Shown: positions 3,798 through 53,395 of the stretch, piece by piece | Layout of the letters: every line of letters starts with the position of its first letter | How positions within the stretch are numbered: the first letter of the stretch is position 1 | Virus record (IMG/VR): IMGVR_UViG_3300034050_000199 | Span: 1-53,395 of that record | From: a virus | Direction: 5' to 3' (one strand) | DNA length: 53,395 bases | The notes under the pieces: model-generated | What the model saw: only the letters and a program-made list of their open reading frames with translations | The model's database searches: none | What the model was told of the DNA's origin: nothing | Made by a program: the position numbers and the translations under genes

Positions 3798-3840
3798 AGT
3801 TACATTATTATTATCAATTAGTATTCGTGTTTGTTTTGTA
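3798..3840 (-). promoter_or_regulatory. Repeated promoter motif, copy 2
   Basis: Minus-strand reading gives ACAAAACAAACACGA, nine bases, then TTGATAATAATAATGTAACT. It is a full-length copy 15 bp upstream of the 146-aa gene and immediately downstream of the structured RNA region, so it could also mark the end of that RNA. Confidence 0.7.
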
Positions 3841-3852
3841 TGTTATTAATTT

Positions 3853-4145: not shown

Positions 4146-4166
4146 CATAATGCACCGTGTATATTA

Positions 4167-4619: not shown

Positions 4620-4633
4620 AGTATATATATTTA

Positions 4634-4996: not shown

Positions 4997-5017
4997 AATT
5001 TTATTTTTAGTTTGTTA

Positions 5018-5221
5018 TTAAATATCTTTTTCTACTAATTCAGCTATGTAATTCCATAACTCTAAATCTCTCTTTGCTCCTCTAATCATAAGGTCTAGTT
5101 GCTCATCTTCTAATATAGATAGATGATATTTTTTATCATTTTCTATATCTCTTATTTTTACCGTAATATTACTTATTTTAGAAAATGCTTTGTCTCTTAG
5201 TTTGTCTTGTAGTGCTGTCAT
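5018..5221 (-). CDS. Helical hypothetical protein, 67 aa
   Basis: Starts MTALQDKLRDKAFSKISNIT and is predicted fully helical with charged heptads, ending WNYIAELVEKDI. A promoter-motif copy abuts its start codon with essentially no leader, so it is probably the first gene of a transcript. No recognised family. Confidence 0.7.
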   Translation of the reverse strand: MTALQDKLRDKAFSKISNITVKIRDIENDKKYHLSILEDEQLDLMIRGAKRDLELWNYIAELVEKDI

Positions 5222-5260
5222 ATATTATTATTATCAATTATTGTCCGTGTTTAGTTTGTA
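5221..5260 (-). promoter_or_regulatory. Repeated promoter motif, copy 3
   Basis: Minus-strand reading gives TACAAACTAAACACGGACAA followed by a TTGATAATAATAATATA box that ends at the ATG of the 67-aa gene. The motif overlaps the stop of the upstream 49-aa gene, so a promoter has been fitted into coding DNA. Confidence 0.65.
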
Positions 5261-5400
5261 TGTAACATTATATTTTTATAAACTCTAGCGTATGCTTCTG
5301 CCATTTTTTCGTTGTTAGCATAATGTACATTTTGTACTTTATCTCGTAGCCATAAGTGAAATTTGTCACACTCAAGCATTGCTTTGTCTCTGTTACTCAT
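5251..5400 (-). CDS. Hypothetical protein, 49 aa
   Basis: A short frame starts MSNRDKAMLECDKFHLWLRD and ends KNIMLHTN. It looks like a single long amphipathic helix pair with one Cys. It is spaced 2 bp from the preceding gene's stop, and its end runs into the promoter motif. Supported by collinearity and codon pattern only. Confidence 0.55.
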   Translation of the reverse strand: MSNRDKAMLECDKFHLWLRDKVQNVHYANNEKMAEAYARVYKNIMLHTN

Positions 5401-5402
5401 AG

Positions 5403-5615
5403 TTAATCGTTTTTTTCTATAAATTCAATGTGTTTACTTACGTGAAATCCTATTGTATTGTCTTGTTCAGTTATATAATAACCGTTGTTTTCTGATTCTA
5501 ATTCGAAAAAAATGCCGCCGTTTTCAAATTTTAATACTTTACCGTATGTTTCTAATGTAGGGTCAATATAATATGACTTACCTACAATTGCATCATAACT
5601 TTTTACTACATTCAT
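5403..5615 (-). CDS. Hypothetical protein, 70 aa
   Basis: I place the start at the internal ATG giving MNVVKSYDAIVGKSYYIDPT, because an upstream ATG at 5669 would overlap the neighbouring gene by more than 50 bases and adds a hydrophobic stretch unlike the rest. The product looks like a small beta barrel (KVLKFENGGIFFELESENNG) of the size of SH3 or KOW-like domains. No motif identifies a partner. Confidence 0.65.
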   Translation of the reverse strand: MNVVKSYDAIVGKSYYIDPTLETYGKVLKFENGGIFFELESENNGYYITEQDNTIGFHVSKHIEFIEKND

Positions 5616-5616
5616 A

Positions 5617-5838
5617 TTATACTGTTTTAAAATTAATATTGTTATGATTCCATAACCCCTTGAATGCAAAGCCTTTACCTTTAGTGAAGCTAGCTTTTTG
5701 TTTAGTGGCTACTTTATTGTATTCGCTTTGATTGAAAGGCTTACAGTAACCGTGTATAGCAACCATTGTTTTATGGTGCTGCAAACATTTTTGCTTACGT
5801 TTGTTTGATCGATATTCGATAAGTTCTTGCATTGTCAT
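5617..5838 (-). CDS. Basic hypothetical protein, 73 aa
   Basis: Starts MTMQELIEYRSNKRKQKCLQ. It is strongly basic, with several His and Cys residues (CLQHHKT, HGYCKP) and a Lys/Phe-rich end. The basic charge and spaced His/Cys suggest nucleic-acid or metal binding, which is inference. It is one base from the downstream start when that start is placed at 5615, supporting the shorter choice there. Confidence 0.6.
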   Translation of the reverse strand: MTMQELIEYRSNKRKQKCLQHHKTMVAIHGYCKPFNQSEYNKVATKQKASFTKGKGFAFKGLWNHNNINFKTV

Positions 5839-5841
5839 AGA

Positions 5842-6018
5842 CTATTCTTTTATATAAGTTAAACCTTTGTGATTAAAAAATGATGTGATGCCTTCAGTTT
5901 CATTATCAGCATCGTATATAAATGCAAATGATGGTGGTAAGTTTCCAACAGTATAACCTTTGTATGGTACTTTGTTTAGTAATAATCTGTTACCAGATAA
6001 AAATTTAATTGTATTCAT
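5842..6018 (-). CDS. Hypothetical protein, 58 aa
   Basis: A clean frame starts MNTIKFLSGNRLLLNKVPYK and ends NHKGLTYIKE. It lies 16 bp downstream of a full promoter-motif copy, so it is a first gene in its unit. The predicted fold is a small mixed alpha/beta domain. No family is recognised. Confidence 0.65.
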   Translation of the reverse strand: MNTIKFLSGNRLLLNKVPYKGYTVGNLPPSFAFIYDADNETEGITSFFNHKGLTYIKE

Positions 6019-6033
6019 AGTATATTATTTATT

Positions 6034-6076
6034 AGTTACATTTATATTATCAATTGTTATTCGTGTTTGTTTTGTA
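6034..6076 (-). promoter_or_regulatory. Repeated promoter motif, copy 4
   Basis: A full-length minus-strand copy: ACAAAACAAACACGA, nine variable bases, then TTGATAATATAAATGTAACT. It is nearly identical to copy 2 outside the variable spacer. It lies 16 bp from the 58-aa start codon and touches the stop of the 87-aa gene. Confidence 0.7.
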
Positions 6077-6340
6077 TTAGTATGGAATTACCTTTAATGA
6101 ATTGGGAGTTAAATTTAATTTTTCTTCAATTTCTTTTAATGTCATCTCAACTTTATAACCATTATGGTAAATGTTAGACCAATATTCGTGGCCACGTTTT
6201 GTGCGGTGGAATGCAATAGATTCAGAAAGTGTTGCATTTTCATATACTCTATTTAGAGCCCATTCTAAGCCATCGGTATCAATCATATCTGATACAAATT
6301 CTCTAAAGTCTGTTTTGTTTAATTCGTTAATTCTAGTCAT
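6077..6340 (-). CDS. Hypothetical protein, 87 aa
   Basis: Starts MTRINELNKTDFREFVSDMI and ends LTPNSLKVIPY, with a central FHRTKRGHEYWSNIYHNGY. It is mainly helical at the start and mixed at the end, with several basic residues in the middle. No motif of known enzymes is seen. Part of the same minus-strand run of small genes. Confidence 0.65.
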   Translation of the reverse strand: MTRINELNKTDFREFVSDMIDTDGLEWALNRVYENATLSESIAFHRTKRGHEYWSNIYHNGYKVEMTLKEIEEKLNLTPNSLKVIPY

Positions 6341-6351
6341 AGTTATATATT

Positions 6352-6453
6352 TTATAAGTTATTAATTACATACGATGCATTGCGAGCACCCTCTAAAAAT
6401 TCAAATTTAATTTTAATAAATAATCTTCGTAAAAATCTTTTGTTTGTTTTCAT
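6352..6453 (-). CDS. Basic peptide, 33 aa
   Basis: The frame reads MKTNKRFLRRLFIKIKFEFL then EGARNASYVINNL. The very basic, amphipathic N-terminus resembles membrane-active or nucleic-acid-binding micro-proteins. It fits a gap of about 110 bp between two larger genes. The M-K-T-N-K or M-R-T-N-N start recurs in two other tiny genes (8849-9022 and 9519-9632). Confidence 0.45.
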   Translation of the reverse strand: MKTNKRFLRRLFIKIKFEFLEGARNASYVINNL

Positions 6454-6469
6454 GTTGTTTGTTTTAGTT

Positions 6470-6757
6470 TTAAAGTTCCATAGTTTTTCTTATAACATCT
6501 AAAGTGTCTCCTTTAGATTGGTAACCTAATACATCATCTGTTATAAGTGTGTCATACGTAATATTCCAATCATCATCATCTTCAGAATTAAATTTTATAA
6601 TTGCTATTTCAAATTTTTCTTGCTTATTACCGTAAGAAAATGAATGGCTTACTACAGATAAACCATAGTTATTATCAAATCTAAATACTATTTGCATTCC
6701 ATTATTAATAGAATTAAAGTCTATTATGTACTTATTATATTGTTTAATTAAATTCAT
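6470..6757 (-). CDS. Hypothetical protein, 95 aa
   Basis: Starts MNLIKQYNKYIIDFNSINNG and is beta-rich, with an acidic SEDDDDWNITYDTLI segment. A promoter copy ends 13 bp upstream of its ATG. The beta alternation suggests a compact domain; no family is recognised. Confidence 0.7.
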   Translation of the reverse strand: MNLIKQYNKYIIDFNSINNGMQIVFRFDNNYGLSVVSHSFSYGNKQEKFEIAIIKFNSEDDDDWNITYDTLITDDVLGYQSKGDTLDVIRKTMEL

Positions 6758-6769
6758 ATTGTTTGTTTT

Positions 6770-6812
6770 AGTTACATTTATATTATCAATATAGTGTCGT
6801 GTTCTGATTGTA
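6770..6812 (-). promoter_or_regulatory. Repeated promoter motif, copy 5
   Basis: Minus-strand reading gives ACAATCAGAACACGA, a variable spacer, TTGATAATATAAATGTAACT. The upstream half diverges from consensus while the GATAAT box and GTAACTA tail are preserved. It overlaps the last codons of the 114-aa gene. Confidence 0.65.
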
Positions 6813-7130
6813 TCTCACTATAAAGCCATCATGCCAAGGTAATAAACCGTGTTTTGTTTCTAAAAAAGGTTCAAACTTTTTCATTCGTAATCGTGATGTG
6901 GAACCAAGTGCGTATAGCAAACCGTTCAAACGCATTAACGTCGTTCTAGTGTGCCAACCACAAGTAGAGATAGATATTGTACCGTCTGCTTTCATCGTTG
7001 CAATAGGGTTACCCCATAGACGCATATAAGTTACGCCATCATCTAACTTTGTTACGGACATGTTATCTTTGTAATAGTCTTTACCGTTTAGGAATGCATT
7101 GATCGATTCCGTTGTTATCTTATTATACAT
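6786..7130 (-). CDS. Conserved phage hypothetical protein, 114 aa
   Basis: Starts MYNKITTESINAFLNGKDYY and contains LWGNPIATMKADGTISISTC followed by G-W-H-T-R-T-T-L-x-R-L-N. The G-N-x-I-A and G-W-x-T-x-T-T-x-x-R-L-N signature is one I recognise from many tailed phages, always annotated as hypothetical. The fold is probably beta-rich with a conserved basic/aromatic patch. Its end carries the promoter for the next gene. Confidence 0.75.
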   Translation of the reverse strand: MYNKITTESINAFLNGKDYYKDNMSVTKLDDGVTYMRLWGNPIATMKADGTISISTCGWHTRTTLMRLNGLLYALGSTSRLRMKKFEPFLETKHGLLPWHDGFIVRYNQNTTLY

Positions 7131-7150
7131 AATTATATTTTTATTAGTTA

Positions 7151-7249
7151 TTATTCTTCATCAAATGAACAGTGTTCTAAACAATCACCGCATAATTCAT
7201 CAAATATGTGATGTCTTGATGCACCACAACAATCGCTGTATTCTTCCAT
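7151..7249 (-). CDS. Cys-rich mini-protein, 32 aa
   Basis: The frame reads MEEYSDCCGASRHHIFDELC then GDCLEHCSFDEE. The C-C-G-A start, the C-x2-C pair and a nearby third Cys form the pattern of a short zinc-binding knuckle. I have seen the same pattern in small proteins of T4-like and marine phages. Function is unknown; it may be a protein-binding metal knot. Confidence 0.6.
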   Translation of the reverse strand: MEEYSDCCGASRHHIFDELCGDCLEHCSFDEE

Positions 7250-7262
7250 ATTATTTATTTTA

Positions 7263-7451
7263 TTATTCATCTACTGTCATTAAAAATGTGCATACAAGAG
7301 CTATTGATAAATATAATCTAATAAGTCTCCAATCAATATTTAATTCAATGATACTCCAAGAAGCGAAACAACAAATTAAGTATAGCATAATGCAAAACAA
7401 CAGTGGTAATACTATAAAGAAAGCTAAATAGGTTTTCAAAAATCTTTTCAT
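7263..7451 (-). CDS. Small membrane protein, 62 aa
   Basis: Two strongly hydrophobic stretches cover most of the protein: LAFFIVLPLLFCIMLYLICC (about residues 9-28) and LYLSIALVCTFLM (about 47-59). A basic N-terminus (MKRFLKTY) suggests the N-in orientation. Its ATG overlaps the stop of the upstream 51-aa gene. A role at the host inner membrane is likely; a holin role is less likely given the separate lysis cassette. Confidence 0.6.
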   Translation of the reverse strand: MKRFLKTYLAFFIVLPLLFCIMLYLICCFASWSIIELNIDWRLIRLYLSIALVCTFLMTVDE

Positions 7452-7603
7452 AACATACTTTTAATTAAAAAAAAATCTTTTTCGTTTGTAATAATTTTTT
7501 TCTCTGTTTTTGTTAAATATTTATAATCCTTGACTTCCTCAAAAGAATATTTTAATATACCTAAAATTTCTTTTTTATAACGTATGTAATTAATTAAATT
7601 CAT
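7448..7603 (-). CDS. Lys-rich hypothetical protein, 51 aa
   Basis: Starts MNLINYIRYKKEILGILKYS and is dominated by Lys, Glu, Ile and Tyr, suggesting two helices. The stop overlaps the start of the downstream membrane protein as ATGA, which strongly supports that the frame is translated. No family is recognised. Confidence 0.6.
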   Translation of the reverse strand: MNLINYIRYKKEILGILKYSFEEVKDYKYLTKTEKKIITNEKDFFLIKSML

Positions 7604-7604
7604 A

Positions 7605-7790
7605 TTATTTATTTTTTAATTCACTTATTATTTCACCTTGTAAGTCTTCTATAATTCGCATTTTATAGTATGCTTTTCCAAATGTTTCTGGGTTTTTATC
7701 GTATGTTATTACTTCCTCACATTCTTTATACAACCAATCTAAAGCTTCTTGTATTATCACCGCTTCTCGTCTCGCTAAATTTAATTTCAT
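7605..7790 (-). CDS. Helical hypothetical protein, 61 aa
   Basis: Starts MKLNLARREAVIIQEALDWL and is predicted to be two long helices, ending LQGEIISELKNK. One base separates its stop from the next start. The helical hairpin architecture is common in small phage binding proteins; nothing more specific can be said. Confidence 0.65.
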   Translation of the reverse strand: MKLNLARREAVIIQEALDWLYKECEEVITYDKNPETFGKAYYKMRIIEDLQGEIISELKNK

Positions 7791-7808
7791 ATTAATTATT
7801 TATTAAGT

Positions 7809-8021
7809 TTATAAATCTTCTTCGGTATAAAGAAAGTCATCAGAGTGGAACATATAATGTATGTCATTTAAGCTAAAGCCTAGTTCAACAATCCATTGTT
7901 CAAAAGCTTCACTTTCATCTAAAGAATTATCTTTATTAATTATTGCATCAATTACTTCTTGTGGGTATGTAAATTTCCAAACTCTACCCCAATTAAAATC
8001 TAAGATTGTTATATATTTCAT
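7809..8021 (-). CDS. Acidic hypothetical protein, 70 aa
   Basis: Starts MKYITILDFNWGRVWKFTYP and contains many Asp/Glu residues, ending HSDDFLYTEEDL. A promoter copy lies 14 bp upstream. The V-W-K-F-T-Y-P-Q-E-V-I-D segment resembles short conserved phage proteins of unknown role. Confidence 0.7.
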   Translation of the reverse strand: MKYITILDFNWGRVWKFTYPQEVIDAIINKDNSLDESEAFEQWIVELGFSLNDIHYMFHSDDFLYTEEDL

Positions 8022-8034
8022 ATTATTTGTATTT

Positions 8035-8077
8035 AGTTACATTATTATTATCATTTAGTAATCGTGTTGGCTTTGTA
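8035..8077 (-). promoter_or_regulatory. Repeated promoter motif, copy 6
   Basis: Minus-strand reading gives TACAAAGCCAACACGA, variable bases, then ATGATAATAATAATGTAACT. It sits 14 bp upstream of the 70-aa gene and partly inside the end of the 134-aa gene. Confidence 0.68.
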
Positions 8078-8459
8078 TTTTAACCGGTTTTACTTCATAT
8101 AACTCAATTCGTATATGGTTATTATATAATTTAAGTTCACTTTTTTTCCAACGTTCAAGTTGGTATTCTTTAGGTTTGTCATTTTCGTAATCAACTAGTA
8201 CGTCGTACCAAACGTATTCAATATTATCGTCAATACCTAGTTGCTCATAATTAAAATCGTAATACAAATAGTTTTCAAAATACCATTTAATTGCTTCTTT
8301 TAAGTCTTCCGCATAAACGTGAGAGGACAAATTATAAGCAGAAACAAACTCTAATTCGCCTTCATTATAGTCATCAACGTATATTTCGTGATAACTTTTA
8401 ATCAAATACTCTTTCATATCATTACTTTTTTTAGTTAATTTAGCGGACAACATATTCAT
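8055..8459 (-). CDS. Hypothetical protein, 134 aa
   Basis: Starts MNMLSAKLTKKSND at a TAATG overlap with the upstream stop. A second ATG at 8417 (MKEYLIKSYHEIYVDDYNEG) could be the true start, since it begins the better-structured part. The rest is acidic and aromatic, with a Y-E-Q-L-G-I-D-D segment and a basic, beta-rich C-terminus. The general look is of a mixed fold protein; no family is recognised. Confidence 0.7.
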   Translation of the reverse strand: MNMLSAKLTKKSNDMKEYLIKSYHEIYVDDYNEGELEFVSAYNLSSHVYAEDLKEAIKWYFENYLYYDFNYEQLGIDDNIEYVWYDVLVDYENDKPKEYQLERWKKSELKLYNNHIRIELYEVKPVKIQSQHDY

Positions 8460-8728
8460 TATCTAAAGTCAATTCTCTCATTACTCAAATCAAACCATAT
8501 ATTAATCGCTTGATTTACACATTCAAGGTCATCATTACCCGATAAATATACTCGACTCGCATTGTAAACCGCTAATATAGCCGGGTCACCATTCCTACCC
8601 GTAAAGTCATACGGTTCATCACCTTGCATGAAATCAATACCCACAATTGTATTAGCCACCTTAATGATTAACACTCGTCTATCGTAATCATCACTCCAAT
8701 ACTCTATTCTACTTTCTACTACTCTCAT
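8459..8728 (-). CDS. Hypothetical protein, 89 aa
   Basis: Starts MRVVESRIEYWSDDYDRRVL and has a beta-rich first half followed by FMQGDEPYDFTGRNGDPAIL. It uses more C and G in wobble positions than its neighbours. A promoter copy lies 14 bp upstream and the stop is fused to the next start as TAATG. Function unknown. Confidence 0.7.
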   Translation of the reverse strand: MRVVESRIEYWSDDYDRRVLIIKVANTIVGIDFMQGDEPYDFTGRNGDPAILAVYNASRVYLSGNDDLECVNQAINIWFDLSNERIDFR

Positions 8729-8741
8729 ATTATTATTTTTT

Positions 8742-8784
8742 AGTTACATTATTATTATCAACACCCAATCGTATTCGTCTTGTA
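8742..8784 (-). promoter_or_regulatory. Repeated promoter motif, copy 7
   Basis: Minus-strand reading gives TACAAGACGAATACGA, variable bases, TTGATAATAATAATGTAACT, 14 bp before the 89-aa gene. The tail GTAACTA is fully conserved. Confidence 0.68.
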
Positions 8785-8848
8785 AAGGTTATACTTCATT
8801 TATAAGAAAAAATATAGTTAAGGTTATTATCACCTGTCTCTCAGCTAC

Positions 8849-9022
8849 TTACGGAATGAAAACCACTCGTTTTAACTTCCAATTAATCACTTTATGGTCT
8901 TCAAGTGCGTTTTTTACTAATAATTCGGTTAAATCCGGGTAATAACTTGTATCGAATATCACTTCGAATTTCTCACCACTCGGTGATTTAAGTTTTACAC
9001 ATAATTTGTTGTTTGTTTTCAT
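8849..9022 (-). CDS. Hypothetical protein, 57 aa
   Basis: A frame missed by length cut-offs starts MKTNNKLCVKLKSPSGEKFE and ends KLKRVVFIP. It is a compact alternation of strands with one central helix. A full promoter copy lies 20 bp upstream, which is strong support that it is expressed. Its MKTNNK start resembles MRTNNK at 9632 and MKTNKR at 6453. Confidence 0.65.
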   Translation of the reverse strand: MKTNNKLCVKLKSPSGEKFEVIFDTSYYPDLTELLVKNALEDHKVINWKLKRVVFIP

Positions 9023-9041
9023 TTTGTTTGTTTGTTTGTTT

Positions 9042-9083
9042 GTTACACATATATTATCAACTTGGTCTCGTGTTCGTTCTGTA
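9042..9083 (-). promoter_or_regulatory. Repeated promoter motif, copy 8
   Basis: Minus-strand reading gives ACAGAACGAACACGA, variable bases, TTGATAATATATGTGTAAC. Just upstream is GTGTATAGCAT, an extension also present near copies 9 and 12. It drives the 57-aa gene. Confidence 0.7.
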
Positions 9084-9142
9084 TGCTATACACGATAGGT
9101 AAAGTATGAGGTTAAAAAGTACCTTGGCGACCCAATTTCCCA

Positions 9143-9196
9143 AAAGTGCGACATTAGGGTCTTAAGTAATATAATAAGAGGCTAACGTCACACTTT
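9143..9196. promoter_or_regulatory. Imperfect palindrome, copy B (54 bp)
   Basis: The left arm AAAGTGCGACATTAGGG (9143-9159) and the right arm GGCTAACGTCACACTTT (9180-9196) are inverted repeats matching at 13 of 17 positions. Read rightwards, GCGACA is followed 16 bases later by TATAAT. It lies in a gene-free stretch of about 230 bp between the 57-aa and 74-aa minus-strand genes. Function as an operator or bidirectional promoter is inferred from its recurrence. Confidence 0.6.
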
Positions 9197-9256
9197 TTAA
9201 ATACCGTGTAGGGCGGAGTCTACTCTTCCGACTCTATTTCAAAGCCAGGCCAAGGG

Positions 9257-9290
9257 TATTATCAAAAAAGAACCGTGTTCACTCTGTGTG
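9257..9290 (-). promoter_or_regulatory. Repeated promoter motif, degenerate copy 9
   Basis: Minus-strand reading gives CACAGAGTGAACACGGTTC and TTTGATAATA but lacks the GTAACTA tail. The upstream extension GGTGTATAGCA is present. No gene lies within 200 bp downstream, so it may drive a short RNA through palindrome B or be a decayed copy. Confidence 0.45.
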
Positions 9291-9310
9291 CTATACACCC
9301 TAATCGGGTG

Positions 9311-9535
9311 TTATTCTACTGGTGACAGGTATATTGTGTCATTTATTATCGTATCAATTTCAATGTGACCGTGTGCAGGTATTCCTTCTAGGTCGTCATT
9401 CCAAATAAACACTGCTCCGGTCTCTTCTGGGCTTGTTTTAGGCTCTTCTAAGTCATTTGTTATAGTTAATGCTACAATGCTTAATAATGCGCCACATAAT
9501 ACAAGTATTCCAATTACTTTATTTTCTTCTTTCAT
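9311..9535 (-). CDS. Single-pass membrane protein, 74 aa
   Basis: An N-terminal hydrophobic helix (about residues 8-26, IGILVLCGALLSIVALTI) is followed by an acidic soluble tail containing EEPKTSPEETGAVFIWND. The topology suggests anchoring in the inner membrane with the acidic domain in the periplasm. It overlaps the upstream 37-aa frame by 17 bases. No family is recognised; host-envelope interaction is a guess. Confidence 0.6.
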   Translation of the reverse strand: MKEENKVIGILVLCGALLSIVALTITNDLEEPKTSPEETGAVFIWNDDLEGIPAHGHIEIDTIINDTIYLSPVE

Positions 9536-9632
9536 CTTTTTTAGGTTTTAATTTGTTAGTAATAAATTGATCCAATGTTGTACTCGTTCTCGCAATGCGA
9601 GCAATGTACTTGTGTTTGTTGTTTGTTCTCAT
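9519..9632 (-). CDS. Basic peptide, 37 aa
   Basis: The frame reads MRTNNKHKYIARIARTSTTL and ends KLKPKKDERRK. It is highly basic and begins 7 bp from a promoter copy. Its start resembles those of the 57-aa and 33-aa genes. A nucleic-acid-binding micro-protein is possible. The overlap with the next gene slightly weakens the call. Confidence 0.5.
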   Translation of the reverse strand: MRTNNKHKYIARIARTSTTLDQFITNKLKPKKDERRK

Positions 9633-9638
9633 ATATTT

Positions 9639-9671
9639 TTATTATCAATTGTTCGTCGTATTCGTTCTGTG
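9639..9671 (-). promoter_or_regulatory. Repeated promoter motif, copy 10
   Basis: Minus-strand reading gives ACAGAACGAATACGACGAAC and then TTGATAATAAAAATAT. It has the upstream half and the GATAAT box but not the GTAACTA tail. It lies 7 bp from the 37-aa start codon and also upstream of the membrane-protein gene. Confidence 0.62.
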
Positions 9672-9683
9672 TATAGCACCGGC

Positions 9684-10049
9684 TTATTCAGCCGATACTA
9701 ATTGTTCTACAGTCGCTAGATGTCTGACATTACTTGGCATATCAGTTGATTGTGACCAATATTCACGTTTGATCCAACAAGGCATTATTGATAGTCTTGG
9801 CAACATTACATCTAGTACTTCGTCATGTTTGTAAGTTACTTTTTGATTTTTGTTGTTGACAAATGTTATCGTTTGATTACGACCATACCAAGATTTTCTT
9901 ACTACAAAGTTTGCTCGTTCGATTGGTGGATAGATTAAAGCTAACTCTTCAGGTGTTAGTTTAGAGATAGCCTCTTGTAATAATTCTTTATTACTTTTAG
10001 TTGTTAAAACTACTTCTTCTACTTTTACTTTTTTTACTTTAGTTGTCAT
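9684..10049 (-). CDS. Hypothetical protein, 121 aa
   Basis: Starts MTTKVKKVKVEEVVLTTKSN. The first part is a charged helix, and LTPEELALIYPPIERANFVV leads into a beta-rich domain with SWYGRNQTITFVNN and CWIKREYW. Several aromatic and basic residues suggest a binding surface. A full promoter copy is 18 bp upstream. No family is recognised. Confidence 0.7.
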   Translation of the reverse strand: MTTKVKKVKVEEVVLTTKSNKELLQEAISKLTPEELALIYPPIERANFVVRKSWYGRNQTITFVNNKNQKVTYKHDEVLDVMLPRLSIMPCWIKREYWSQSTDMPSNVRHLATVEQLVSAE

Positions 10050-10066
10050 ATATATTTTATTTAATT

Positions 10067-10109
10067 AGTTACATTATTATTATCATTTAAACGTCGTATT
10101 CGTTCTGTA
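10067..10109 (-). promoter_or_regulatory. Repeated promoter motif, copy 11
   Basis: Minus-strand reading gives ACAGAACGAATACGACG, variable bases, ATGATAATAATAATGTAACT. It begins right after the stop of the 59-aa gene and lies 18 bp before the 121-aa gene, serving as the intergenic promoter. Confidence 0.7.
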
Positions 10110-10289
10110 TTAGGTTATTATTGTGAATCTTAAACAAAGTCTTTTAAATACCTTCTCAACATATTCTATGTCCTCCGAATCGATCAAGAGGTTAGACCCT
10201 ATAATTCTATATGGATGTTGTAATTTATTGGAGTTAGATAACTCACTATGTAATTGTACTCGGAAATTCTTATTAATCTTTAGTATCAT
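10110..10289 (-). CDS. Hypothetical protein, 59 aa
   Basis: A clean minus-strand frame starts MILKINKNFRVQLHSELSNS and ends RLCLRFTIIT. Two promoter copies lie upstream and one follows the stop, so it is exactly framed as a transcription unit. This favours it over the plus-strand frames covering the same bases. The protein is basic and mixed alpha/beta, with no known family. It is the first gene of the leftward block. Confidence 0.65.
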   Translation of the reverse strand: MILKINKNFRVQLHSELSNSNKLQHPYRIIGSNLLIDSEDIEYVEKVFKRLCLRFTIIT

Positions 10290-10306
10290 AATGTTATTTG
10301 TTATTG

Positions 10307-10348
10307 GTTACACTTATATTATCAATTAGTCGTCGTATTCGTTTTGTA
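10307..10348 (-). promoter_or_regulatory. Repeated promoter motif, copy 12
   Basis: Minus-strand reading gives TACAAAACGAATACGACG, variable bases, TTGATAATATAAGTGTAACC, 18 bp upstream of the 59-aa gene. It is the downstream member of a tandem pair. Confidence 0.7.
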
Positions 10349-10376
10349 AGTCATACTCTCACATTTAATATTTTAC

Positions 10377-10417
10377 TTACACTTATATTATCAATGATCA
10401 CTCGTGTCCAGTCTGTA
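10377..10417 (-). promoter_or_regulatory. Repeated promoter motif, copy 13
   Basis: Minus-strand reading gives ACAGACTGGACACGA, variable bases, TTGATAATATAAGTGTAA, preceded by GCGTATAGCAT. It lies about 28 bp upstream of copy 12 with no gene between them, giving a tandem promoter at the head of the leftward block. Confidence 0.66.
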
Positions 10418-41927: not shown

Positions 41928-43457
41928 ATGGCAGCAATATTAGAATTAAAATATTTTAACTCTTTTTGGTTAAAGAAACTCGATACAATAGTAGAGGTAC
42001 AAAATACGGGAGCAGAAGTAGAGGGTAATGTCGCTAATTCTGCTACTGTAGTTATAACAACACCAAACAATGAAATTAGGGTTGGACAAACTGTTAGTTG
42101 GGTAGGGGTTCCGGTCCCTAATCCATCTGTGTATAAAGTAATAAGCTCTACTCAATTTGTATTAAGTGAACCTGTAACTATATTGGATGGTGTAGGATTG
42201 AATTTTGGTCCATTAACAGATTTTACTTATGTACCTAATGCTTATGCACCAACACCTACATCAGATTGGTATGTTGAGGAAGCTAGAATTAGAGGTGGAT
42301 ATAATAATACAAATGTGGATCTTGGTGTTAAAGCTTATATTGTTGAGGACAACATTAGACAGCAACACAGACAAAATTCATTAATATACTCTGGTGTATT
42401 CAATTCAAGAACGGGTGTTAATAAAACAAACGAGTTTTCAGTTGGTGAAGATATAACAAGAAGTTTAGATCCATCAAATGGTTCTATTCAAAAATTATAT
42501 TCTGAAGACACAAACTTAATTGTATTCCAAGAATTTAAAGTTAGTCAAGCATTAATTGATAAAGACGCTATCTATTCAGCAGAAGGACAGCCAATGACAA
42601 CATCTGGAGCGCAAGTAATCGGTCAGGTTCAAGCTTATGCTGGTAACTATGGTATTGGTACTAATCCTGAAAGTTTTGCTGTCTATGGCTTCCGTAAGTA
42701 CTTTGTTGATAGAAACAGAAACGTAGTATTAAGATTGTCACAAGATGGTATATCTGAAATATCAGAATATGGAATGGGTGATTTCTTTAGAGATAATCTT
42801 TCTGAAATTGGTAATGACGGATTTATATTAGGTATGTGGGACATGCATAATAAAGAATACGTTTTATCTATGCAACCAATTAATGGAACTTACAAAACAT
42901 TGACATTCGACGAAGACGTTGCTGGTTGGACAAGTTTCTTTGATTTTAAACCAAACTGGGGCGGAAGTTTAAGAAATAACTTTTACACATTTAAAAATGG
43001 AGAAATATGGAAGCACTATTCGCCAGGTAATAGCGGATGGGGTAGATTCTATGGAGTTACTTATGATTCATCAGTTGAAGTTATATTTAATCCTGATGTA
43101 TCTTTAGTTAAGACTTTTAAAACAATAAATTATGAAGGAAGTACTGGTTGGGAAACTTTATCGTTTTACACTGACTCTGATATTTCAGTTCCTATATCTA
43201 AAGCATCTTATACAACGACTCTTGCTGATTTAGAATTACAATTATTTACTAATTCATTCAAGAGAAAAGAAGATAAATACTTTGCAAATCTTATTAACAT
43301 TACGCCAGCCTCAAATAGTGAAGTGGTATGGGGTAACTCAATGACGGGTGTAAAAGGAACAACAGCAACGGTTAGAATGAGATATTCAAATACGGATTTA
43401 CAGAAGAGTGGAACACTGTTTGCGGTATCTTCTGACTACATAGATTCATCTTACTAA
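41928..43457 (+). CDS. Tail hub-associated structural protein, 509 aa
   Basis: It starts MAAILELKYFNSFWLKKLDT and contains WYVEEARIRGGYNNTNVDLG then a K-A-Y segment, a region I associate with tail proteins that accompany the giant hub. A Y-R...L-S-Q-D-G-I-S-E-I-S-E-Y-G-M-G-D-F-F motif follows, and the C-terminal half is beta-sheet with repeated V-x-F strands. It may complete the tail tip or bind fibres. No enzyme motif. It follows the 1757-aa gene by 53 bases. Confidence 0.68.
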   Translation: MAAILELKYFNSFWLKKLDTIVEVQNTGAEVEGNVANSATVVITTPNNEIRVGQTVSWVGVPVPNPSVYKVISSTQFVLSEPVTILDGVGLNFGPLTDFTYVPNAYAPTPTSDWYVEEARIRGGYNNTNVDLGVKAYIVEDNIRQQHRQNSLIYSGVFNSRTGVNKTNEFSVGEDITRSLDPSNGSIQKLYSEDTNLIVFQEFKVSQALIDKDAIYSAEGQPMTTSGAQVIGQVQAYAGNYGIGTNPESFAVYGFRKYFVDRNRNVVLRLSQDGISEISEYGMGDFFRDNLSEIGNDGFILGMWDMHNKEYVLSMQPINGTYKTLTFDEDVAGWTSFFDFKPNWGGSLRNNFYTFKNGEIWKHYSPGNSGWGRFYGVTYDSSVEVIFNPDVSLVKTFKTINYEGSTGWETLSFYTDSDISVPISKASYTTTLADLELQLFTNSFKRKEDKYFANLINITPASNSEVVWGNSMTGVKGTTATVRMRYSNTDLQKSGTLFAVSSDYIDSSY

Positions 43458-46182: not shown

Positions 46183-49100
46183 ATGGCAAAGTATTTTAAT
46201 AATAACGGAGAAGAATATACTATAGAAGAAATCGTAGCAGCTGCTGAAGAAAACAATAAAAGTGTTGAAGACATTATAGCAGATAATGGTTTAACTATGG
46301 ATGGTGAGAAGCCGGGAAAGTCTCAGGGTGTAACTGCAAAGAAACCGGTAGTTGCACCAAAAAAACGAAAATCGGTTTTACCATCGGGAAATACTTCTTC
46401 GGGTTGGAATACTAAAGAGGCACCAAAATATGGTATTGAAGCTATTACGGAAACTTTTCAAATAAAAAAGAAAGCTCAAGAAAAAAAAGCAGCAACTAAA
46501 AAAGCAGAAGTTAAGAAAAGCAAAGCTGTTGTTAATAATTTTGTAGATGCACAGCCTGATATAGCTAATCCTTTTGATACAACAATAAAAGCAGATGTAA
46601 CTGATCCATTTAATACGGGTGTAAAATTAGATGTAAGTAATATACAAAGCGATTATTTAGGTAGAGAAGATAAAAAAGCAATGCAATTTATTAATTCTAG
46701 TGTTAATTTTGACGAAGCTAACAGTAAGTTAAATGATGAATTAAATGATTCTCAGACTATTGATTATGTAAGAGAAGGAGCAAAAGAATATTATAATGAA
46801 TTAATTGCAAATCCACTTACTGAAGTTGCTGGGTTATTTGGTGCAAATATTGATATAAAAATGGCCCCATATAAACCATTAGAGAATGAGAAGAAACAAG
46901 CTAGAGAAGAATTAGCTAAAAAAGGCATAAAGATTACTAATGAAAAAATAGAAGAAAGAGCTAAATCTATATATATAGATAATCAAATATTAGATCAAAA
47001 AGGTAAAGCTGCTGAAGAATATTTTGACACATTAGATGATGACAAATTAAAAGACCAATTAAAAATTAAAGCGATTGCTGATAAATTAAATGCATCGGAC
47101 AAAGCTAGGCAATATACAATGCTATCTAAAGTTTATGATTCTCAAATAAAAAGCTTTGGTAGTTATGCAAATAATATAAGAAAAAAATACAATGACGGTA
47201 GTATAACGCCTGAAGAGTTAGCAGAATATAAAGTTAAAGCAAAAGAAGCTAAGGAAGCTTATGGATATTTAGAAAATATTTATAAAGACTTTCCTAAAGT
47301 AGAGAAGCAATTAAAAACAGACACAGAAAAACTAGACTTTTATAAATTAAATTATGATGATGTAGAAGGTAATCTAAAAAGATTATATGCAAGTGGTTTA
47401 AAAGTATTAGGTGGAACGTTAAAAATTGGTGGTGAAAGCGCTAAGTTTTTAGAAGAAAGCATAACAGGTAATATAAGCCCAATTGGTACAGGAACAAACT
47501 TAAGTACTATTGGAGGTATGATGTTGGAAGATGCCGAGACCGAAACACAGGATTTAAAATCTATAACTTTTGAAAGTGTTAGTAATTTTAATGATTTTGG
47601 TAAATATATGGGTAATCTGTTCTCAGATCAAATACCTATATATGCTTCAATGTATTTTGGTGGTTCCGCAGGAGCAGGTGCAGTTTCGCTTAGTTCGGGT
47701 GGACAAAAGATACAAGAAATGGAAAACGAAGTTGGAGCTAACTATAGTTTAGGTACAAAGCTACTTACAGGTTATGCTTATGCTACAGCTGAATTCATTC
47801 CAGAAAAAATAGGTACACTTAGAATGTTTGAGAACCTAAAAGGTACTATGGCTTCTGTTGGTAAAGAATCAAGAGAATTATTTAAAGACGGACTATTTAA
47901 GTCTGCTATTGGAATTGGAGGTAAAACGGCAATGGAATCCACCATAGAAGGTGGTACTGAGGGTTTGACTGAATTTTTAGATATGGCTATTGATGAGCAT
48001 TTATTAGGTAAAGAATTTACAGCTCAAACAAAAGTAAAAAGGATTAAAGAGGCTGTTGCCGGTGGAGTATTTATGGCTGGTCCTATGCAAACTATTGGAG
48101 GTGCTAATACTTTAATTGCAAAAGAATTAAAAAACTATGCAACCGAAAACGAAATACAAGAAAGTAAAAAGATTATAGATAGAATCGATTTTTTACAGAA
48201 TGAGTTAGCAACTAATGCTAGTTTATCAAGTAGTGAATCAAATCAAATCAAACAAGAGATAAATAATTTATCTGATACTTCTATTGGTATAATTGAAAAT
48301 TCTCAAGATAGAGTTTACAATATGACTACAGAAGATATGGTTGCTGTAGTTAATATAAATAAAGAACAAGCTAACTTAAAAAATAAGTATACAGAATTAA
48401 TTGACTCTAATTTTTCAAATGAAATTAAAGTTGAAAAAGCAAACGAATTAAATAAGGAATTTAAACAACTTGAAAAAGAAAGACAGTTTTTATTAACGGA
48501 TAAATATGCTACAATAAATAAAGTAGTTAATAACGCTTTGGTTATTAATGACAGCATTGAAAATATAACTAAAATAGCTAATTCTATTGGACAAGTTGAA
48601 TTTGATAATAAAATAGGTGATCAATCTGGTATTGCTGTATTTAATTCACCAAAAGAATTAGGTGAAGCGTATAAAGTATGGTTAGTTAAAGATAATAAAA
48701 ACGAAGATGGTACGGAAAAGAAAACACCTGCTCAAATTGATTTAGAAGTAAAAGAAGCAATTAACTCAGATGGTTTTAAATTACCAAATGGACAAATTGT
48801 AATCAATAAAGCTGTTGCTGCTAATACAGGGGCTATTAACGTTGCTAACCATGAATTCTTACATAAAATACTACAATCAACATTTGAAGATAAAAAACAA
48901 GCTAGTTTATTAGTTAATCAATTTTTAAATGTATTGAGCAATAAAGAAAGAGCTATTGTTCAAAAAAGGATTGATGATAATTATAGATATTCAATAGACG
49001 CAAACGGCAATAAAGTTGAGAATGATTTTGAAGATTATGCTGAAGAATATTTTAATTCATTTATTGATGCTTTAAAATACGAAGAGATTAATAACAAAGA

Positions 49101-52100
49101 TAACTTTAAACAATTATTAATTAGAGTTGCTTATCCTATATTAAAGTATTTTAAAAAATTAGGTTTTAATAAAATAGAATTTGAATCAGGTGATGATGTT
49201 TATCAATTTTTAAAGTCCTACCAAAAAAATATATCAAAAGGTAGAATTAGTAAAAGAGCAACTAAATTACTTAGCCAAGAAAAAGTAGGTGGTAGAGTAA
49301 TGAAATCAAAATCTATTCAAGAAAGAATGGATAAACTTGATGATCAATTAGGTTCAGGAGAAATAGACATTGACATGTACGAGACCCGTATGGTTGCCCT
49401 TGAAAAAGAGGAATTTGAAGAATCTAAAAAAGCATACGAAGAAGAAAAGAAAACGGTTAAAAAAGAACCAACTAAAAAAGAACCAACAGAAATAAGTGAA
49501 TCAGCTGCAAAAGCAAAAGCTAAATTAGATAGTATTGGTAATGATCCTAAAGGGTATAATCCAAACAATCCAGCTATTTACGATGAGCTTGACAAAATGG
49601 TTAAAGCTAAATCAAGAAACTATAGAACTTCAAACGGGACCGTTATTGATCTTACAAGTAAAGAGAAGGGTGGATTAGATGGATTCAATATGGAAGAAAT
49701 GGTAAGTTATGTTAGAACTTCCATGATCCCTTATATTGCTAAATTTGATCCTACTAAAAATAATAGTTTGTATGGCTATATCAATGCCCAGTATATTAAT
49801 AGAATGAAGGCTGCTCTGAAAAGTGGAGAAGTTGCTGATGTTGTATTTACTGAAGATGTTAGTGAAATGACTAAACTTTCTAATGAAGAAGTTGAGGTAA
49901 AAACACCTTCATTACCAGAAAGGAAAAGATACCAGAATATTTTAGAGTCTGGTGTATTTTCACCAGCTGTTATTGAAGATATACAAGCAAAGATATTACC
50001 AATAATAAGAACTTTAAAATCTAAAATAGATGAGAAGGTTTCATTAAATAAAACAGTACCTCCTATTATTGCTGAAATACGTAACGAGATTGGTAAACAA
50101 GCTGATATTGACGTTAAAAGAGCTATGGGCGGTAAAGAAGATGGCCAACTTAGAAAGTTCTTATTAACAAATAAAAAACCTATTCTTGAAAACATGACTA
50201 CTACATGGTTAATGGGTAAAGATAATGGTAAAACAGTTTCAGGTGGTATGCCTTTTGCTGTTCAAAAAAGAATTAATAATCAATGGACAAGTTATCCAGA
50301 TTGGATTGGAAGAAAAGTTGATAGAGAATCTGTTAGCACTGATTTAGCTGGTAGAACATCTGGTGCTGAATTAGTCAGAAGATTACCTAATGTAGCTAAT
50401 AATATTTCTGATGAAGTATTTTTAGAGTCTATTATAGATCCAGTTACAGGATTACCATTAAGAGGTAGAAAAGAATCATTAGCAAAAGCAATAAGCGAGG
50501 AAATTACTTTTGATATAATATCAGATGATTTAGCAAATGAAGGTATATTATCTCAAGCATTACAGAAAAATCAAGAAATACTGGGTGCAGAAATTGGTAA
50601 AGTAATTGTACAAGAGTTTGATAGATTAGCTGAAAGGGGTAATGTTAAATTTTCTTTATCTTCGCAAAAGAATATAAACTTAGATAAAGCAATGCAATAT
50701 CTAATTAAAAATGGCGGAGATGTAATACAAATAGAGGAAGATTTAAAAGAAAGATCTAAAGACGAAAATACTAATGAATTTAGAAAACTTTATAAATATC
50801 TTATAAGCAATAAGGTTACTAAAGATGACATAATTGATATTATTAAAAAATATACAGAAAGTTTATCTAAGATAGCTTATAATTACCATGAAAAGTATTT
50901 AGTAAATTTAATAAACTCTACATCTAAAACAGGGCCAAGAGCTAAATCTTATGGTGGAAATAATAACAATGTTCCTGATATAGTTATTGGAGCGGCTTTT
51001 AGAATAAAAGATAAAGACAAGTTAAATAAATATAACGGTTCATTAGCATTTGTGGAAGCTAAACTAAATGCTTATGCAAGATTGACTTCTGGTACTTTAA
51101 ATGCTTTAAATACTAAGCATAATAATAAAGAATGGGCAAAATCTATAAATGATCTATATTCTAAATTTAATGATTCTACATTAGGAAAACAATTAAACAA
51201 GTATACAGAAAGTAATAAGACTGATGCAGGTGCTCTTGTTATTAAAGATGGTGAATTAAATAATGTAAATAATCTTTTATTAAATAATAAACTAGTAGGT
51301 AAGATTGATTTAGGTATTGATGCAATATTAGATATTAATAATTCTAAAACATTTAAAAACGATCTGTTAATTATAAAAACAACAGTAACAGATTATTTTG
51401 GCGAAGATTTTTTTAATACATACTTTGGCAATGAAGATGTTAGTAAGAATATAATATCTGCACAAATAGAGTTAAAGGTTGAACAAAATAAATTTATAAG
51501 GCCTAGAGTTTACTTTTATATTAATAGAAATATTGCTAACAATATTAATAAATTAAATATAGAAAAAAGCAATTTAACGGAAATACTGCCAAAAGCGGAT
51601 GCTGTAATTAAGAATAAAACTTTATTAAAAGAGAATAAATTAATTGAAAACTCTGTTAAAGTAGTTAATTTTAGTAAATCAATATCAACCGCTACTGATT
51701 ATATTAATAAAAACAATTTAAGAAGATTAGACACTGAAACTTCTTATGAATTACTTGATCAATTAGCAAAAGAAATTGAAAATTATTGGGGTGTTTTACC
51801 TAATGATGTTATTCTTGGAATGAACAGAGCTGTAGATTATGCTGTGGACGTAATAGAAGATCGCGAAGGATCTGGCTTCTTAATGGAAGCATTGAATCAA
51901 GGTTTGAATATTGAGACTGTTAAAAATGCTGAAAAGCAATTAAACGAATTTATTGATAAAAACAAACCAAAAAGCACAATGTATAGCAAATCCTTGGATT
52001 TTGAATTCAATGATATACTAGAAAGAAATACGGGTGTTGCAGCATTTACAAAAGTATCTGATGTAGTGGCTAAAAGAACAGGTATTAAGAAAAACACATT

Positions 52101-53395
52101 ATCATTCTTTGTACCACCTTCAGCTGATGACTTTAGAGGTTTAACAACTTATATGTTTGCTGGTAAAGGTAAACAAGGAGAACAAGATCAAGAATTCTTT
52201 GATAAAAACTTAACTGTTCCGTATGTAAAAGGTATTAATACTTTAGATTCTGTACGTCAGTCTATTAGAAAAGAATATAAGATGTTGCTTAATAATTTCC
52301 CTGATATTAAAAAGAAACTTGAAAAGTTAACACCAGATAAAGGTTTTACTTATGATCAAGCTGTTAGGGTTTATCTTTGGTCGTCAACTGGTAAGGAAGT
52401 TCCTGGTTTATCAAGAACTGATAAGAATAAATTATTGTACTTTGTAAAACAAAATCCTGATTTACTGGCTTTTGCAAACGCATTGTCAATAACGGGTAGA
52501 CAAGATGGCGGCTGGATTGATCCTTCAACAACTTGGGATAGTGAAACTATTATATCTGATCTTCACAATATTACTGAAGGCGCTGGTAGAAAGAAATATC
52601 TAGAGGAGTTTATAGAAAACGCTGATGCAATATTTACAAAAGAAAACCTAAACAAGATACAATCTATATATGGTACAAATACAAGAGAAGCATTAGAAGA
52701 TTCTTTATATAGAATGAAGAATGGTAAGAATAGACCAGAAGGTACTGATAGAGTAACAAATACTTGGATGAACTGGATTAATGGTTCTACTGCTGCAATT
52801 ATGTTCTTTAATACTAGATCAGCATTGTTACAGACTATATCAGCAATTAACTTCATAAACTGGAATGATAATAATCCATATATGGCAGGTAAAGCTTTTC
52901 TTAATCAGAAACAATATTGGTCTGACTTCGCGATGATTATTAATTCCGACAAATTAAAAGAAAGAAGATCTGGTTTAAAAGCCGATGTTACTCAAGCTGA
53001 GATTGCTAATGCTGCAAACAGTGCTAAAAACAAATTTAACGGTGTTATATCTTATTTACAAAAAATAGGTTTTACACCTACACAAGCAGCGGATAGTTTT
53101 TCTATCGCAGTTAGCGGTGCTACATTCTATAGAAATAGAGTTAACACATATTTGAAAGCAGGTGATACTGTACAAGAAGCTGAAGAAAAAGCATTCAATG
53201 ATTTTTCAATCATAACGGATCAATCAATGCAATCCGCCGATCCAATGTACGTTTCAAAACAACAAACAACTGCATTAGGACGCATTATATTGGCTTTTGG
53301 TAATACTCCAATGCAATATAATAGATTGATCAAAAAAGCTACGTTAGACTTAGCTAATAGACGTGGAGATTGGAAAACAAATGTTTCTAAAATTG
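46183..53395 (+). CDS. Giant polyvalent ejection protein, >2404 aa, 3' end missing
   Basis: The frame from the ATG at 46183 stays open to the window end. Several parts are visible. Around 480-680 is a Gly-rich amphipathic part with E-G-G-T-E-G. A zincin motif H890-E-F-L-H894 occurs with acidic residues about 50 further on. Residues 1166-1212 (V-S-Y-V-R-T-S-M-I-P-Y-I-A-K-F-D-P-T then Y-G-Y-I-N-A-Q-Y-I) resemble sigma-factor region 2. A PD-(D/E)xK-like nuclease has P-D1599...E1625-A-K1627. The C-terminal W...F-F-N-T-R-S-A-L-L-Q is typical of phage large polyvalent proteins. It would be packaged and injected. Confidence 0.8.
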   Translation, partial: MAKYFNNNGEEYTIEEIVAAAEENNKSVEDIIADNGLTMDGEKPGKSQGVTAKKPVVAPKKRKSVLPSGNTSSGWNTKEAPKYGIEAITETFQIKKKAQEKKAATKKAEVKKSKAVVNNFVDAQPDIANPFDTTIKADVTDPFNTGVKLDVSNIQSDYLGREDKKAMQFINSSVNFDEANSKLNDELNDSQTIDYVREGAKEYYNELIANPLTEVAGLFGANIDIKMAPYKPLENEKKQAREELAKKGIKITNEKIEERAKSIYIDNQILDQKGKAAEEYFDTLDDDKLKDQLKIKAIADKLNASDKARQYTMLSKVYDSQIKSFGSYANNIRKKYNDGSITPEELAEYKVKAKEAKEAYGYLENIYKDFPKVEKQLKTDTEKLDFYKLNYDDVEGNLKRLYASGLKVLGGTLKIGGESAKFLEESITGNISPIGTGTNLSTIGGMMLEDAETETQDLKSITFESVSNFNDFGKYMGNLFSDQIPIYASMYFGGSAGAGAVSLSSGGQKIQEMENEVGANYSLGTKLLTGYAYATAEFIPEKIGTLRMFENLKGTMASVGKESRELFKDGLFKSAIGIGGKTAMESTIEGGTEGLTEFLDMAIDEHLLGKEFTAQTKVKRIKEAVAGGVFMAGPMQTIGGANTLIAKELKNYATENEIQESKKIIDRIDFLQNELATNASLSSSESNQIKQEINNLSDTSIGIIENSQDRVYNMTTEDMVAVVNINKEQANLKNKYTELIDSNFSNEIKVEKANELNKEFKQLEKERQFLLTDKYATINKVVNNALVINDSIENITKIANSIGQVEFDNKIGDQSGIAVFNSPKELGEAYKVWLVKDNKNEDGTEKKTPAQIDLEVKEAINSDGFKLPNGQIVINKAVAANTGAINVANHEFLHKILQSTFEDKKQASLLVNQFLNVLSNKERAIVQKRIDDNYRYSIDANGNKVENDFEDYAEEYFNSFIDALKYEEINNKDNFKQLLIRVAYPILKYFKKLGFNKIEFESGDDVYQFLKSYQKNISKGRISKRATKLLSQEKVGGRVMKSKSIQERMDKLDDQLGSGEIDIDMYETRMVALEKEEFEESKKAYEEEKKTVKKEPTKKEPTEISESAAKAKAKLDSIGNDPKGYNPNNPAIYDELDKMVKAKSRNYRTSNGTVIDLTSKEKGGLDGFNMEEMVSYVRTSMIPYIAKFDPTKNNSLYGYINAQYINRMKAALKSGEVADVVFTEDVSEMTKLSNEEVEVKTPSLPERKRYQNILESGVFSPAVIEDIQAKILPIIRTLKSKIDEKVSLNKTVPPIIAEIRNEIGKQADIDVKRAMGGKEDGQLRKFLLTNKKPILENMTTTWLMGKDNGKTVSGGMPFAVQKRINNQWTSYPDWIGRKVDRESVSTDLAGRTSGAELVRRLPNVANNISDEVFLESIIDPVTGLPLRGRKESLAKAISEEITFDIISDDLANEGILSQALQKNQEILGAEIGKVIVQEFDRLAERGNVKFSLSSQKNINLDKAMQYLIKNGGDVIQIEEDLKERSKDENTNEFRKLYKYLISNKVTKDDIIDIIKKYTESLSKIAYNYHEKYLVNLINSTSKTGPRAKSYGGNNNNVPDIVIGAAFRIKDKDKLNKYNGSLAFVEAKLNAYARLTSGTLNALNTKHNNKEWAKSINDLYSKFNDSTLGKQLNKYTESNKTDAGALVIKDGELNNVNNLLLNNKLVGKIDLGIDAILDINNSKTFKNDLLIIKTTVTDYFGEDFFNTYFGNEDVSKNIISAQIELKVEQNKFIRPRVYFYINRNIANNINKLNIEKSNLTEILPKADAVIKNKTLLKENKLIENSVKVVNFSKSISTATDYINKNNLRRLDTETSYELLDQLAKEIENYWGVLPNDVILGMNRAVDYAVDVIEDREGSGFLMEALNQGLNIETVKNAEKQLNEFIDKNKPKSTMYSKSLDFEFNDILERNTGVAAFTKVSDVVAKRTGIKKNTLSFFVPPSADDFRGLTTYMFAGKGKQGEQDQEFFDKNLTVPYVKGINTLDSVRQSIRKEYKMLLNNFPDIKKKLEKLTPDKGFTYDQAVRVYLWSSTGKEVPGLSRTDKNKLLYFVKQNPDLLAFANALSITGRQDGGWIDPSTTWDSETIISDLHNITEGAGRKKYLEEFIENADAIFTKENLNKIQSIYGTNTREALEDSLYRMKNGKNRPEGTDRVTNTWMNWINGSTAAIMFFNTRSALLQTISAINFINWNDNNPYMAGKAFLNQKQYWSDFAMIINSDKLKERRSGLKADVTQAEIANAANSAKNKFNGVISYLQKIGFTPTQAADSFSIAVSGATFYRNRVNTYLKAGDTVQEAEEKAFNDFSIITDQSMQSADPMYVSKQQTTALGRIILAFGNTPMQYNRLIKKATLDLANRRGDWKTNVSKI

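Follow-up and report, generated by a model that had tools for sequence, protein, structure and literature searches.

The window analysed here, a stretch of 53,395 bases, is a virus record without end repeats, and its source is a marine phage of flavobacteria. Its late genes follow the order TerL, portal, capsid, tail, muzzle, small proteins and giant gene, with portal, capsid and tail assigned by PHROG match (Table 1). The TerL relatives are phages of Flavobacterium, Cellulophaga, Maribacter and Tenacibaculum, with 63% identity to Manatee Spring podovirus, 44% to Elemovirus of Flavobacterium, about 37-39% to Cellulophaga phages and 31% to Tenacibaculum phage Gundel_1. Its Pfam matches identify the muzzle-like protein as a Crassvirales muzzle; it is followed by a short tail-fibre protein, then the two small proteins, and then the giant gene. 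GroEL and two GroES-like proteins are encoded at 20416-21969, 21953-22216 and 25217-25834; one GroES-like protein adjoins GroEL (by reading) and the other precedes the terminase. GroEL and GroES are also present in Elemovirus, with cpn10 likewise in front of the terminase.

Table 1. Coordinates of the features discussed; residue numbers refer to the giant protein.
Feature	Position	Strand	Basis or remark
Early promoter-like element ACRRAACGAAYACGA ... TTGATAATAWWAATGTAAC, 11 copies	3799..10394	-	before leftward small genes
Terminase	26045-28267		left of giant gene; PHROG match
Muzzle-like tail protein	41928..43457	+	Pfam crAss_MUZ and crAss_MUZ_C, over Pfam cut-off
Two small proteins, 267 and 468 aa	43946..46164	+	candidate smaller cargo/ejection proteins; position and synteny
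Giant open frame, 2404 aa	46183..53394	+	last gene of late/structural block; cut by contig end
N-terminal region, residues 182-779	46726..48519	+	homologous to Elemovirus giant (26% identity); 357-516 to Cellulophaga phage phi38:1
Zincin-like metallopeptidase segment, residues 825-1036	48655..49290	+	A7 alignment; helix/strand order
HEFLH (HExxH), residues 890-894	48850..48864	+	invariant in 21 homologues
E955, candidate third zinc ligand	49045..49047	+	downstream helix; invariant in A7; helix in model
Variant junction motif K-S-K-S-I, residues 1041-1045	49303..49317	+	KYSKSI in relatives; low-confidence linker before sigma-like domain
Sigma-70 region-2-like domain, residues 1132-1216	49576..49830	+	profile-profile comparison, Pfam in relatives, Foldseek
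Junction motif KFSLS, residues 1489-1493	50647..50661	+	start of cassette slot
PD-(D/E)xK nuclease-like cassette, residues 1489-1828	50647..51666	+	E1570, D1599, E1625, K1627; relatives lack it or carry another module
Variant junction motif NFSKS, residues 1829-1833	51667..51681	+	
Junction motif MYSKS, residues 1933-1937	51979..51993	+	start of C-terminal domain
C-terminal domain with FFNTRSALLQ (RSALLQ 2212-2217)	51979..53394	+	common among viral giant proteins; truncated in the window

The giant gene comes last in the late operon, with a crAss-type muzzle ahead of it, which is the cargo position; a giant gene likewise closes the same block in Elemovirus, phi38:1 and the Manatee Spring phage. 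In phiCrAss001, the genes that follow the muzzle encode cargo that mass spectrometry has detected (PMC10172136). The Elemovirus and phi38:1 giants were labelled 'structural protein' by their depositors. Outside residues 182-779, the window protein is unrelated to the Elemovirus giant and to phi38:1 gp101; because the N-terminus is shared with these phages while the remainder is not, the protein can be read as a common carrier part with an exchangeable payload, residues 182-779 being the probable virion or ejection part. An earlier reading of the sequence alone (the sequence-only reading) had called co-injection of such proteins with phage DNA established, which is too strong for this one: the proposal rests on gene position and on homology to proteins annotated as structural, and taking a 'structural' protein to be an injected one is our inference.

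The frame is open without a stop over 2404 codons and continues past the contig edge, so the single long frame described in that reading is real, and the positions that it gave for HEFLH, for D1599, E1625 and K1627, for the sigma-like text (1166-1212) and for the C-terminal RSALLQ all proved correct. What had been observed is thereby confirmed; the interpretation attached to it is partly supported. Full-length relatives measure 2,589-3,370 aa (for example 3004 aa in L002 and 2965 aa in L003), and since related contigs show the complete gene, the window protein is short of about 400-600 aa at its C-terminus. Homologues counted here and below are not independent of each other. A Pfam scan of the window protein gave no family over cut-off, including the described polyvalent-protein domains, in a library that may lack this clade, and Pfam and PHROG scans together gave nothing usable. 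An ADDT match (E 0.06) was rejected, as it straddles the border between zincin and linker. There was no match to PDB sequences by phmmer or hmmsearch, no transmembrane segment by hydropathy, and no DxDxD motif of virion RNA polymerases in the window protein, the record being a fragment. In two relatives (L019, near 10660-10693, and L072, near 10174), the giant frame is interrupted within or just after the sigma-like block; each resembles a single break caused by a frameshift or by assembly, probably an assembly error, and was rejected as gene architecture. A distant giant of 2220 aa with HEVLH and a sigma-like domain 38% identical (L218) lies on a 16 kb contig binned to a Crocinitomicaceae MAG. 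As the only relative of this kind, it was rejected as a sign of host prophage origin; the contig is probably a phage contig that carries a host hint.

Downstream of the N-terminal region, HExxH and E955 are invariant across 21 homologues whose identity falls to about 30%. In the predicted structure, a short strand pair is followed by the HEFLH helix, and E955 lies in a later helix, the arrangement expected of a zincin-like metallopeptidase; this order agrees with that of the polyvalent-protein zincins of PMC5512222. A Foldseek search of PDB with the model of residues 825-1265 placed no zincin among its best 50 matches, so the fold is without independent confirmation. The zincin that had been claimed thus stands on its residues and predicted helix order but not on a fold match, and HEFLH and E955 would bind metal in a zincin-like manner. 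Two small observations belong here: residues about 1046-1071 (window 49318-49395) form a short helix-turn, QERMDKLDDQLGSGEIDIDMYETRMVALEKE, which by eye resembles a SHOCT-type repeat, and a 103 aa protein with HEKVH at window 23372-23683 is possibly another tiny metallopeptidase.

The next segment is the best-conserved central block of the giant. The sequence-only reading had suggested a resemblance to sigma-70 region 2, the guess likeliest to be noise, and it came out as the best supported. Searches with the window protein itself against Pfam and PDB sequences gave nothing for this segment, and the Pfam family Sigma70_r2 did not match the window's own copy. In eight related records, positions 19-68 of the Sigma70_r2 model aligned each time to this segment of the giant frame, at E 0.001-0.024, and L142, an RSALLQ giant further removed, was matched with E 3.3e-6; none of these matches passes the Pfam cut-off. 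A profile of the window clade reaches L142 in register, together with about 14 further giants. In profile-profile comparison by hhalign, the window clade against a shallow sigma alignment was not significant, and an unrelated control (a nuclease alignment) scored better; slices of the whole-giant alignment against sigma were not significant either. The deciding alignment held 36 giant segments (Neff 4.1) and matched sigma factors over 67 columns covering regions 2.1-2.4 with P 9.5e-5 and a score of 30.5, against at most 20.1 in 150 column shuffles and 13.0 for the reversed profile. The result persisted with cellular sigmas only (P 2e-4) and without L142 (P 8.6e-5).

Structure prediction pointed the same way. 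The AlphaFold model of residues 825-1265 has a middling pLDDT of 69, higher over the sigma-like helices, and sigma factors made up most of its best 50 PDB matches by Foldseek, with E-values that are weak (0.36 or worse) and not significant alone in a database rich in redundant sigma chains. The N-terminal domain of SigE aligned with a TM score of 0.64 by target length, at 3.3 A over 83 columns, and T4 gp55 with a TM score of 0.46; the rmsd of the long alignments was mostly near 30 A. Of the three folds that the sequence-only reading expected from structure prediction, the sigma type appeared among the matches listed, with weak E-values, and no zincin and no nuclease did. On the combined evidence of the broadened hhalign comparison with its controls, the Pfam matches in relatives and the Foldseek list, homology to sigma-70 region 2 is accepted. 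Since Sigma70_r4 (PF04545, -35 recognition) has no match in the window, the segment is not a complete sigma factor and is named here a sigma-region-2-like domain. It is present in many giant proteins of different phages and was not found in the Elemovirus and phi38:1 giants.

Relatives vary in the stretch that separates the sigma-like block from the C-terminal domain. The window carries in this slot a module in which E1570, D1599, E1625 and K1627 are invariant among 10 modules of 22-47% identity to the window. Its model (pLDDT 84.5, pTM 0.73) places the E-helix, the (P)D strand and the (D/E)xK strand in the order of PD-(D/E)xK nucleases; Mrr_cat was matched by the module of one relative (E 2.7e-4, below cut-off), and no nuclease was found among the listed matches of PDB and viral fold searches. 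The claimed nuclease therefore holds for the invariant residues but not for the fold search, and the cassette is called nuclease-like, with putative nuclease activity. L002 and L003 share about 60-100% identity with the window in the sigma-like and C-terminal blocks and 6-40% in the slot. An unrelated module fills it in L009 and L020; in L059, L065 and L071 it is occupied by different modules in which PD/ExK-like text recurs. L016 has no nuclease-like module and L050 has the same short start; in both giants, the cassette is cut down to a short stub after the sigma-like domain, and the border motifs are retained. Further relatives add an ART-like, a HAD-like or another small module, the ART and HAD names coming from reading the sequence, not from a search. 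HAD-phosphatase-like text, GISVFDFDDTLA, was seen among a group of more distant giants at protein residues about 1990-2197 in L059, 1994-2195 in L065 and 1993-2194 in L071, and in L065 and L071 it directly follows a border motif. The swappable cassette slot is new here. Viral contigs contain the RSALLQ end that closes these proteins in at least 119 stretches, and 80 of the 80 loci examined carry it.

Modules tend to start with [K/M/N][F/Y]S[L/I/K/R/Q][S/T], written more narrowly as [K/M/N][F/Y]S[K/L][S/T], and this border motif at module junctions is also new here. In protein P0001, one of the four motif copies has the strict KFS form. Across 21 giants, K[FY]S was observed 74 times against 30 expected, and the reversed control S[FY]K 14 times. 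Among 218 homology-block borders, which are not independent, 92 left borders lie at most 12 residues from a motif, compared with 9.8 at random (maximum 20 in 2000 trials). Over the broader set of RSALLQ proteins, many but not all C-terminal domains are preceded by the motif. Our preferred reading is that the junction motif would serve as a processing site. It could also be an opening turn that each module conserves, or a footprint of recombination that travels with the modules when they are exchanged, and this alternative falls only a little short of an even chance. The C-terminal domain of many giants begins FSKSL..FN, so part of the motif is homology, and homology blocks begin at the motif; however, it is also found on unrelated modules. 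Its serine is encoded by both codon classes, TCN and AGY, which places the constraint on the protein rather than the DNA; on this ground, the motif was rejected as a DNA recombination site.

At the other end of the window, TTGATAATAWWAATGTAAC has 12 matches in all against 0.7 expected, 11 of them leftward copies in the left block. It is preceded by ACRRAACGAAYACGA, and the element often lies 14-19 nt before a start codon. Promoters of the Bacteroidetes type have TTG at -33 and TAnnTTTG at -7. The early promoter-like element does not look like this type, and in that sense would be non-host-like; its occurrence in 11 copies is new here. It is common to relatives and absent from Elemovirus and phi38:1, and the clade-wide co-occurrence of promoter and sigma-like domain may be mere descent. 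Many related genomes encode separate Sigma70_r2 proteins of 250-262 aa, most of them above the Pfam cut-off. Such proteins were seen in more than one RSALLQ-phage lineage (L193, L194, L196-L202 and L235:6997-7755), and none was seen in the window fragment. This separate sigma factor of about 250 aa is a rival reader of the left-block promoter, at which the sigma-like domain of the giant could possibly act as well. In G006, a near-complete relative of 61 kb, no recognised RNA polymerase was found among the early ORFs scanned, and its separate sigma-70 protein (252 aa) is encoded downstream of the early promoters. Should a phage factor be required at these promoters, this protein cannot itself start first transcription, because of where its gene lies; with no polymerase recognised either, the early start would fall to the host polymerase alone or helped by something brought in. 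The redirection of transcription suggested in the sequence-only reading is thereby a reasonable possibility.

Taken together, the giant is probably a polyvalent-type protein carried as virion cargo, in which a conserved N-terminal carrier is joined to independent modules that include the sigma-region-2-like domain. The conserved N-terminal region would bring the protein into, or out of, the particle, and the payload chain would comprise a zincin-like protease, the sigma-like domain, the exchangeable nuclease-like cassette and the RSALLQ C-terminal domain. The junction motif could be the place of cutting, by the protein's own zincin or a head protease, or a point of exchange. After ejection, the sigma-like part might bind host RNA polymerase and help to open phage early promoters, and the nuclease-like part might target host DNA or a defence system. 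The analysis shows the open frame, its conservation and modular build, the motif, the relationship to sigma region 2 by profile and the gene position; we infer packaging, injection, cleavage and transcriptional activity, and 'polyprotein' is meant in the sense of a presumed cleaved precursor. The multiple activities foreseen for the protein accordingly hold as several unlike domains in one virion-position chain, but its nuclease and zincin folds were not confirmed by fold search. The phage may thus deliver, along with its DNA, a component of its own that steers transcription in the cell. The most far-reaching form of this idea, that a phage without its own RNA polymerase injects a sigma-region-2-like module of a self-processing cargo polyprotein, capturing host RNA polymerase for non-host early promoters, and that many marine RSALLQ-giant phages follow the same scheme, we consider rather unlikely as a whole.

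A somewhat doubtful but serious contender is that the protein is ordinary large polyvalent cargo. Its sigma-like segment would then be only a helical module, structural or DNA-contacting, of sigma-region-2 ancestry and without a role in transcription, and reading of the early promoters would fall to the host enzyme or to a separate phage sigma. The free-standing sigma proteins of related genomes would suit this arrangement, as would the absence of region 4, the occurrence of the domain in many giants of different phages and the replacement of the tryptophan pair of RpoD region 2.3 by A-Q (alignment by eye, in ungapped register on KFDP). However, GYxxAQxxNRM, the equivalent of the melting region, is kept in nearly all 21 members, and both observations on G006, its scanned early genes without a phage RNA polymerase and its sigma gene downstream of the early promoters, argue in the other direction. 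It is improbable that the modules are structural or ejection pieces (internal core, channel or DNA-binding) with decayed enzymatic motifs that deliver no effector. The N-terminal region is indeed common to phages without such payload domains, phi38:1 needs no more than 1691 aa and lacks HExxH, and the nuclease fold lacks confirmation, but catalytic residues invariant in strongly diverged modules are unlike decay, and the unrelated slot modules of L059, L065 and L071 again show PD...ExK-like text. The polyvalent cargo reading is retained, with polymerase binding by the sigma-like domain as a putative property.

Several known systems offer points of comparison. Virion RNA polymerases that are injected are known from N4 and crAss phages; that of the N4 type (Schitoviridae) is an ejected protein of about 3,500 aa with a zincin-like domain, which carries out early transcription. 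N4 injects a polymerase, whereas here at most a sigma-like part that needs the host polymerase would be delivered, and the DxDxD motif of the crAss virion RNA polymerase is absent from the window protein. T4 gp55, one of the region-2-like fold matches of the window domain, is synthesised as a separate protein once infection has begun, whereas the window domain is embedded in a giant protein at a virion position. The giants of the cultured flavophages Elemovirus and phi38:1 share the late-block end position and a homologous N-terminus but have unrelated payloads with no sigma-like domain and, in phi38:1, no HExxH. In crAss-like phages, the cargo genes (gp45-gp50) likewise come after the muzzle and the giants are the largest cargo (PMC10172136), while the TerL relatives of the window are phages of the four genera named above. 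Polyvalent proteins of phages and conjugative elements likewise combine unlike domains in one chain, with a zincin-like peptidase as hub and with proposed self-processing and co-delivery with the genome (Iyer et al. 2017, PMC5512222). The window protein joins two or more unrelated domain types in the same way; that account describes no sigma-type domain, the word 'sigma' being absent from it, and its passages compared here describe no junction motif or single exchangeable slot. The literature searched contained no case of a sigma-factor fragment that is injected and reprograms host polymerase in the first minute of infection. The window probably encodes a polyvalent virion protein made notable by its sigma-region-2-like domain. 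The exchangeable slot and the border motif provide a testable handle on polyvalent-protein processing and effector swapping, and because the sigma-like domain can be traced by profile through about 15 further viral giants, one biochemical test would inform a large group of aquatic phages.
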